Source: Catenulispora sp. EB89
GTDB taxonomy: Bacteria; Actinomycetota; Actinomycetes; Streptomycetales; Catenulisporaceae
Assembly: GCF_041261445.1 (NCBI RefSeq)
Contig: NZ_JBGCCU010000008.1
Span: 186,001-250,000 of the forward strand
DNA: 64,000 nucleotides
Direction: 5' to 3'
Part shown: one piece after another, positions 11,588 through 11,958 of the stretch
Position numbering within the stretch: position 1 is the stretch's first letter
Layout: every line of letters starts with the position of its first letter
Made by a program: the position numbers and the translations under genes
Notes under the pieces: model-generated
What the model saw: only the letters and a program-made list of their open reading frames with translations
Databases searched by the model: none
Told to the model about the DNA's origin: nothing

Positions 11588-11616
11588 TTGTCCGTGCTCT
11601 GCGGGCCCGGCAGGAT
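11588..11616 (+). promoter_or_regulatory. Candidate promoter for the leader-peptide/tRNA locus
   Basis: TTGTCC (11588-11593), a 17-nt spacer and CAGGAT (11611-11616) give a good actinomycete sigma-70-type promoter. The predicted start of transcription, near 11623, is about 45 nt before the leader ORF. Confidence 0.5.
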
Positions 11617-11667
11617 GTACCCATCAAGCGGTTCCGAAGCCGAGATCGGACAGGAAGGGGCAGGGAC

Positions 11668-11745
11668 ATGACCGTCGTAGCGACCCGACTGTGCGTCCTC
11701 CGGTCCCTGTGCCTTGCACGCCTTCCGGAGGAGATCTCGGCCTGA
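11668..11745 (+). CDS. Putative 25-aa Leu/Cys-rich leader peptide
   Basis: The peptide begins MTVVATRLCVLRSLCLARL and ends PEEISA. The ATG is preceded by AGGAAGGGG (11652-11660). Five of 25 residues are Leu (codons 8, 11, 14, 16 and 19; CTG at 8 and 14), and each CTG is followed by a TGC Cys codon. The stop codon lies at the foot of a 10-bp dyad, and a 17-bp terminator follows 21 nt later. This is the layout of translation-coupled attenuation, but no amino-acid biosynthesis gene follows: the next gene is a tRNA-like sequence. I do not recognise this peptide as a known leader. It could be a chance short frame, although its start signal, codon content and position argue against that. Confidence 0.5.
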   Translation: MTVVATRLCVLRSLCLARLPEEISA

Positions 11746-11764
11746 CCGTCACCAGGTGACGGTC
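11696..11764 (+). promoter_or_regulatory. Attenuator-like hairpins overlapping the leader ORF
   Basis: Two hairpins precede the terminator. TCCTCCGG (11696-11703) pairs with CCGGAGGA (11725-11732) across the Leu/Cys codons. GACCGTCACC (11744-11753) pairs with GGTGACGGTC (11755-11764) over the stop codon. A ribosome stalled at codons 8-16 would disrupt the first. No clear mutually exclusive antiterminator was found by eye. Confidence 0.5.
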
Positions 11765-11765
11765 C

Positions 11766-11809
11766 AAGGGCCGCCCGCCGGAAGGGGAAACCTCCGGCGG
11801 GCGGCCCTT
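11766..11809 (+). terminator. Strong intrinsic terminator between leader ORF and tRNA
   Basis: A perfect 17-bp stem: AAGGGCCGCCCGCCGGA (11766-11782) pairs with 11793-11809, with a 10-nt loop AGGGGAAACC, followed by TTCTCG. It ends 13 nt before the tRNA, so it either terminates the leader transcript or gates readthrough into the tRNA. Confidence 0.85.
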
Positions 11810-11822
11810 TCTCGTACCGCAA

Positions 11823-11896
11823 GCTTCCGTAGCCCAATTGGGAGAGGCACGGCGTTCAGAGCGCCGTCAGTGTGGGTTCGAATCCCACCGGGAGCA
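11823..11896 (+). tRNA. tRNA-like gene, anticodon CAG (Leu codon CUG) but class I fold with short variable loop
   Basis: 74 nt. Acceptor 11823-11829 (GCTTCCG) pairs with 11889-11895 (CGGGAGC) over 7 bp with one U-G; discriminator A11896; no encoded CCA. The D-stem is GCC/GGC (11832-11834 with 11846-11848). The anticodon stem CGGCG/CGCCG is perfect around loop TTCAGAG, giving anticodon CAG at 11857-11859. Variable loop TCAGT has 5 nt. The T-arm is GTGGG-TTCGAAT-CCCAC. All features of a functional tRNA are there, but bacterial tRNA-Leu normally has a long class II variable arm, which this lacks. It may be a special-purpose or differently charged tRNA, or a tRNA-shaped regulatory RNA. It could be an old pseudogene, but every stem is intact. 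Confidence 0.75.
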
Positions 11897-11958
11897 CTGG
11901 GCCTGATTTCGCGTCCCTCGTAAGGGTTTCGGCGGTTCCGTTCGTCGCCCAGAACTAT

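Follow-up and report, generated by a model that had tools for sequence, protein, structure and literature searches.

Positions 11588-11896 on the forward strand of the window, the 64,000-nt stretch of Catenulispora DNA that was analysed, hold a short leader gene and a tRNA gene at a single locus. Within 11668-11896 come, in this order, an ORF of 25 codons, a stop-codon hairpin, a GC-rich terminator-like hairpin and an intact class I tRNA-Leu(CAG). A sequence-only reading had proposed a promoter, an ORF, two hairpins, a terminator and a tRNA here, and every part was present at the position claimed for it. The candidate promoter (11588-11616) consists of a -35 element TTGTCC (11588-11593) and, after 17 nt, a -10 element CAGGAT (11611-11616). 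It is a weak match and was not reported by a stringent sigma-70 scan; most relatives carry TTG(T/C)C and a -10 element of the type NANNCT at the equivalent position. The Shine-Dalgarno sequence GGAAGGGG (11653-11660) lies 7 nt 5' of the ATG of the leader ORF (11668-11745), which encodes MTVVATRLCVLRSLCLARLPEEISA and matches the leader profile with E=2.4e-15. The ORF has, as had been counted, 25 codons with five Leu and two Cys codons among them; the presumed sensing codons lie within 11689-11709 and are Leu8 CTG (11689-11691), Leu11 CTC (11698-11700) and Leu14 CTG (11707-11709). The predicted 5' strands of an antiterminator follow at 11721-11743 (CCTTCCGG at 11721-11728 and CGGCCT at 11738-11743). 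The stop-codon hairpin, GACCGTC...GACGGTC (11744-11764), begins within the leader stop codon itself. The terminator-like hairpin (11766-11809; -44.4 kcal/mol) shares its 5' arm with the antiterminator. Its perfect 17-bp stem and the start of the tRNA 13 nt further 3' were both as read from the sequence, and a 2-bp apical extension brings the stem to 19 bp. The hairpin is strong, but its tail has just a short U tract, UUUCUC in the window; a terminator scan reported no site at 11766-11809.

The usual form of bacterial tRNA-Leu is class II, with a long variable arm. The tRNA of the locus (11823-11896, anticodon 11857-11859) lacks this arm and has the complete cloverleaf, CAG anticodon and 5-nt variable loop described for it before; ARAGORN calls it tRNA-Leu(CAG). 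It carries A73, and CCA is not encoded. A covariance model had been suggested as a check on the gene: the Rfam tRNA model gave 53 bits, outside the pseudogene range and within the 48-74 bits obtained across all tRNAs of the genome. Across 10 genomes, the cloverleaf pairing was 100% intact, and at four pairs both partners have changed; together with the score, these compensatory changes rule out a pseudogene. A14, A15 and A73 are all retained. The acceptor stem of 7 bp and the T stem of 5 bp exclude an allo-tRNA, which would have 8/4 or 9/3 stems. The anticodon duplicates that of a class II tRNA-Leu(CAG) in the same genome, where the nearest tRNA is a class I Leu(CAA) at 78%. A tRNA array unit or mobile element was rejected, as just one tRNA occurs in the 64-kb window; a distant blastn search of 11640-11897 against plasmids gave partial matches only, over the tRNA part.

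The leader and the tRNA form a conserved unit

A DNA search of 60 relatives located the leader together with the tRNA in the genus of the window strain and in its sister genus. For these two genera, a pattern search yielded Catenulispora pinisilvae and Actinospica durhamensis. Both were complete and adjoining in 10 genomes (seven Catenulispora and three Actinospica-group genomes), and in all 10 Catenulispora/Actinospica genomes that have the class I tRNA-Leu(CAG), a leader of always 25 codons precedes it. The conservation in related genomes that the sequence-only reading had asked for was thus found. The leader profile matched in 11 Catenulisporaceae genomes (E=1e-11 to 1e-15), one of which, G001, has the leader on a contig that ends about 100 bases past it. 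The full-length leader occurs at a single site per genome, exclusively 5' of class I tRNA-Leu(CAG). Outside the Catenulisporaceae, no convincing leader was obtained among 392 genomes of the order (best outside match E=0.025) or in a sample of 395 genomes of the class, which yielded one partial match (E=8e-4) within a 515-aa frame. Viral contigs contained no relative of the leader pattern.

Leader, terminator hairpin and tRNA were kept together across about six genomic contexts: the upstream neighbourhood is common to G000 (the window genome), G002, G007, G008 and G009 and different in the remaining five of the 10 genomes, and only G007 and G009 have a common downstream neighbourhood. The 10 genomes of two genera, the E-values of the leader profile and the fully preserved cloverleaf pairing place the locus beyond chance. 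Directly 3' of tRNA-Leu(CAG), eight of the 10 genomes carry a tRNA(GAG), which is absent from the window strain and G002. Behind the leader, this second tRNA has a long variable arm in Catenulispora (L002, L004-L006, L008) and a short loop in Actinospica (L009-L011), a change from class II at one and the same locus.

Nine leader residues were invariant in all 10 genomes (M1, R7, L8, C9, L11, R12, L14, P20 and E21), as was the presence of a purine-rich Shine-Dalgarno sequence. Between the genera, the codons for C9, L11 and R12 differ at silent positions only, as expected for a translated peptide. The leader is thus a translatable short ORF under coding constraint. For P20 and E21 (CCGGAG), RNA pairing offers an explanation of the invariance, and CGACTGTG is unchanged between genomes at the DNA level. 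Comparison with NCBIfam assigned the peptide to no known leader-peptide family. The conserved Leu codons are CTG at positions 8 and 14 and CTC or CTT at position 11; in the RNA, CUG, CUC and CUU are the codons read by CAG and GAG tRNAs, so that the putative regulatory codons match the function of the downstream genes. No Leu codons are commoner than CUG and CUC, so that their use in the leader is weak evidence alone. CTT accounts for two of the five Leu codons in the window leader, compared to 2.2% in the genes of the window, and the second CTT sits in an RNA pairing element. Two CTG-TGC pairs had been singled out as the signal: both exist in the window leader and one is conserved, but the second reads TAC or TCC in relatives, where position 15 is Cys, Tyr or Ser.

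Ribosome position is predicted to decide between two folds

For folding, we truncated the RNA at the apex of the terminator hairpin and took out the stretch covered by a ribosome. With the ribosome at codon 8, 11 or 14, an antiterminator was predicted in each of the 10 genomes; with the ribosome at the leader stop codon, it was lost in each of them. In the stalled-ribosome folds, CCUUCCGG (11721-11728) pairs with CCGGAAGG (11778-11785) and CGGCCU (11738-11743) with GGGCCG (11768-11773). These predicted pairings are nested around the stop hairpin and occupy the 5' arm of the terminator, so that antiterminator and terminator are mutually exclusive in the predicted folds of all 10 genomes, depending on ribosome position. 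When codons 19-25 were recoded synonymously, the observed stability of the antiterminator was reached in 0-1 of 400 draws per genome in the seven Catenulispora genomes. The antiterminator was likewise the predicted fold in the three Actinospica-group genomes, with a stability not significant against synonymous recoding. Exchange of leader ends between the genera did not consistently favour the cognate pair in folding.

Each of the 10 genomes has a predicted stop-codon hairpin (-6.5 to -14.6 kcal/mol) and a predicted terminator-like hairpin of 13-21 bp (-26 to -44 kcal/mol) located 12-46 nt 5' of the tRNA. The full transcript folds preferentially into the terminator form, which indicates that the switch would need co-transcriptional timing. 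A T-box riboswitch was rejected, since no T-box model matched up to E=1, and no other Rfam family matched. On comparative and folding evidence, the proposed combination of leader peptide, attenuator and tRNA in one locus was borne out as a conserved unit.

Class I tRNAs are the only cognates found for some Leu codons

The class I shape had been taken as a hint that the tRNA is charged with something other than Leu. Genome tRNA sets, taken from Rfam matches, do not support this. In the window genome, as in the complete Catenulispora genome G004, the class II tRNA-Leu found were those for CAG, GAG and TAA only, and class I tRNA-Leu(TAG) and tRNA-Leu(CAA) were the only cognates found for CUA and UUG. 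Further evidence against a charge other than Leu is that class I tRNA-Leu is widespread and that in the Streptomyces genome G021 a class I tRNA-Leu(CAA) was the only UUG cognate found; a published gene table lists a single CAA tRNA gene per Streptomyces genome (PMC4932002). The Actinospica-group genome G012 contains a class II CAA tRNA, and no class I CAA tRNA was found there. In each genome examined, a single LeuRS gene passed the cut-off, by which a second LeuRS serving the class I tRNAs was rejected. Since class I tRNAs are the sole cognates found for some codons and each genome has one LeuRS, the gene content suggests that tRNA-Leu(CAG) of the unit is likely charged with Leu.

The class I tRNA-Leu(TAG) and tRNA-Leu(CAA) genes of G000 lie at L405 (G000:C23) and L090 (G000:C19:190401-190874). 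No matching leader plus terminator was recognised 5' of class I tRNA-Leu(TAG), of class I tRNA-Leu(CAA) (by eye) or of odd tRNA clusters. Class I tRNA-Leu(CAG) is a common tRNA of actinomycetes, myxobacteria and planctomycetes, where most copies sit within dense tRNA clusters, and class I tRNAs with Leu anticodons are frequent in viral contigs; loci of both kinds include L145-L224 and L263-L342. From this distribution it is plausible that the tRNA of the unit derived from a tRNA array and was later domesticated behind the attenuator. The tRNA arrays of actinomycetes, plasmids and phages (PMC5966550, PMC12803027) likewise contain class I tRNA-Leu(CAG), often beside tRNA-Leu(GAG); in contrast, the present unit has one or two tRNAs, forms no array and has an attenuator in front. 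The Streptomyces class I tRNA-Leu(CAA) (PMC4932002; class from G021) shares the short variable loop, a Leu anticodon, A73 and a similar T arm, whereas the tRNA of the unit has a CAG anticodon, duplicates a class II isoacceptor and is preceded by a leader and terminator hairpin. No paper treating class I tRNA-Leu as a class in bacteria was found. These bacteria have a second tRNA-Leu architecture, which lacks the long variable arm and provides the sole cognate found for some Leu codons; it also travels in arrays and viral contigs.

Proposed function and alternative explanations

We consider it reasonably probable that the locus is a ribosome-mediated transcription attenuator that places spare tRNA-Leu genes under control of the sensed supply of charged tRNA-Leu. 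RNA polymerase would start near 11623. With ample charged tRNA-Leu for CUG, CUC and CUU, the leading ribosome would reach the leader stop codon, masking the stop hairpin together with the last part of the ORF; transcription would then terminate at the GC-rich hairpin, 5' of the tRNA. A ribosome waiting at Leu8, Leu11 or Leu14 would leave the ORF end unmasked to pair with the 5' arm of the terminator, and the resulting antiterminator would allow read-through into tRNA-Leu(CAG) and, in most relatives, tRNA(GAG). In the soil bacteria Catenulispora and Actinospica, a shortage of charged tRNA-Leu at the ribosomes would thus probably lead to more spare tRNA-Leu; on the best reading, the regulated product would be this tRNA and no protein. 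Use of the promoter, termination and read-through as real events, and charging with Leu are inferred, as is a physiological signal, for which Leu starvation, damage to tRNA-Leu or high demand would be candidates. Of the self-sensing loop proposed earlier, the principle of a tRNA level set by how Leu codons are translated agrees with the comparative and folding evidence; the sensed codons would be Leu8, Leu11 and Leu14, and not CTG-TGC, which is conserved only once.

The unit can be regarded as a tRNA-Leu supply loop because its tRNAs read the sensed codons, and in the window the 13-nt gap between hairpin and tRNA leaves little room for a promoter of the tRNA's own. The latter point bears on the alternative that leader and hairpin form a separate small transcript, encoding a small protein or acting as an sRNA, and that the tRNA is transcribed from its own weak promoter or by read-in from outside. 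The very stable terminator hairpins and spacers of up to 46 nt in some relatives would fit this arrangement. It is nevertheless improbable in view of spacers of just 12-14 nt in four genomes, the adjacency of leader and tRNA throughout about six genomic contexts, and the restriction of the full-length leader to one site per genome, solely before class I tRNA-Leu(CAG). Codon sensing alone needs no invariant R7, C9 and R12, which are as constant as the leucines, and with CGACTGTG invariant in DNA this speaks for a nascent peptide, RLCxLRxL, that arrests the ribosome, for example together with a translation inhibitor, and frees the tRNA through the same attenuator. Such drug or peptide sensing appears unlikely to us, as several positions amid the conserved residues vary, no known arrest motif was recognised in the leader, and the downstream Leu tRNA reads the leader's own Leu codons.

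A Leu-Cys-rich leader might instead report charged tRNA-Cys; actinobacterial cys operons offer known examples of Cys leader peptides in an upstream position (PMC1262725). C9 is the one invariant Cys position, position 15 being Cys, Tyr or Ser, and the product is a Leu tRNA, which makes cysteine sensing extremely unlikely. The earlier suggestion that the class I tRNA carries another amino acid or is a regulatory tRNA would account for the missing variable arm and for the duplication of class II tRNA-Leu(CAG). It is very unlikely given that no CUA or UUG cognates other than class I tRNAs were found in the window genome and G004, that G012 has a class II CAA tRNA with no class I CAA found in it, that the nearest tRNA of the genome itself is class I Leu(CAA) (78%), that A14, A15 and A73 are retained, and that each genome has one clear LeuRS.

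Attenuation sensing charged tRNA-Leu poses a functional puzzle: Leu starvation would also stall the leader ribosome, yet extra tRNA would give no help. It is possible but rather doubtful that the unit is a self-sensing supply circuit, in which the leader codons switch on a version of the same tRNA without the long arm that replaces depleted or damaged class II tRNA-Leu. The damage could come, for instance, from a tRNA-cutting toxin or defence system recognising class II tRNAs. The tRNA-Tyr of phage T5, as cited in PMC13096335, resists cleavage of the variable loop by retron-Eco7; by analogy only, an altered variable loop could allow a tRNA to take the place of a damaged host tRNA, although no nuclease is known for the present unit, where resistance is hypothetical.

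Leader-peptide attenuation is textbook control of biosynthetic and synthetase genes. In the searchable literature, which has most subscription papers outside its reach, we came across no account of a leader peptide in front of a tRNA gene; the parts of the attenuator are known, and within that literature a tRNA gene as their target appears to be new. If the proposed attenuator is real, tRNA supply itself would be under direct translational feedback through the codons that its tRNA reads. Leader-peptide attenuators have been predicted for leuS of Streptomyces (PMC1262725). They resemble the present unit in the Leu-codon leader ORF, in the antiterminator and terminator and in the link to leucylation; the present unit differs in having a tRNA gene as its target, a different 25-codon peptide and a stop-codon hairpin that belongs to the antiterminator. 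In four Catenulispora/Actinospica genomes (L409-L412), leuS likewise has a short Leu leader ORF in front of it, along with a terminator-like hairpin; the leader in G000 is MRAVTLLLMSPR with the Leu codons CTG CTT CTT (L409, G000:C6:390300-391600). With Leu leaders before both, the synthetase and the spare tRNA would respond to a common signal.

Further unusual tRNA genes were observed. In Streptomyces, class I tRNA-Leu(CAA) lies between CCTT...AAGG repeats (L016, L017, L020), and at the same loci an ORF resembling an HTH/LAGLIDADG-type protein (by eye) lies 3' of the tRNA. At L406 (G000) and L408 (G004) lies a conserved gene that resembles a tRNA, has an anticodon-loop region of unusual length (CGCT CAGATCCACTCA AGCG) and receives no ARAGORN call. 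Tandem odd tRNAs that have a common body and differing anticodons were present at L402 (G000:C4; Trp/Arg) and L403 (G004; Arg/Glu/Arg).
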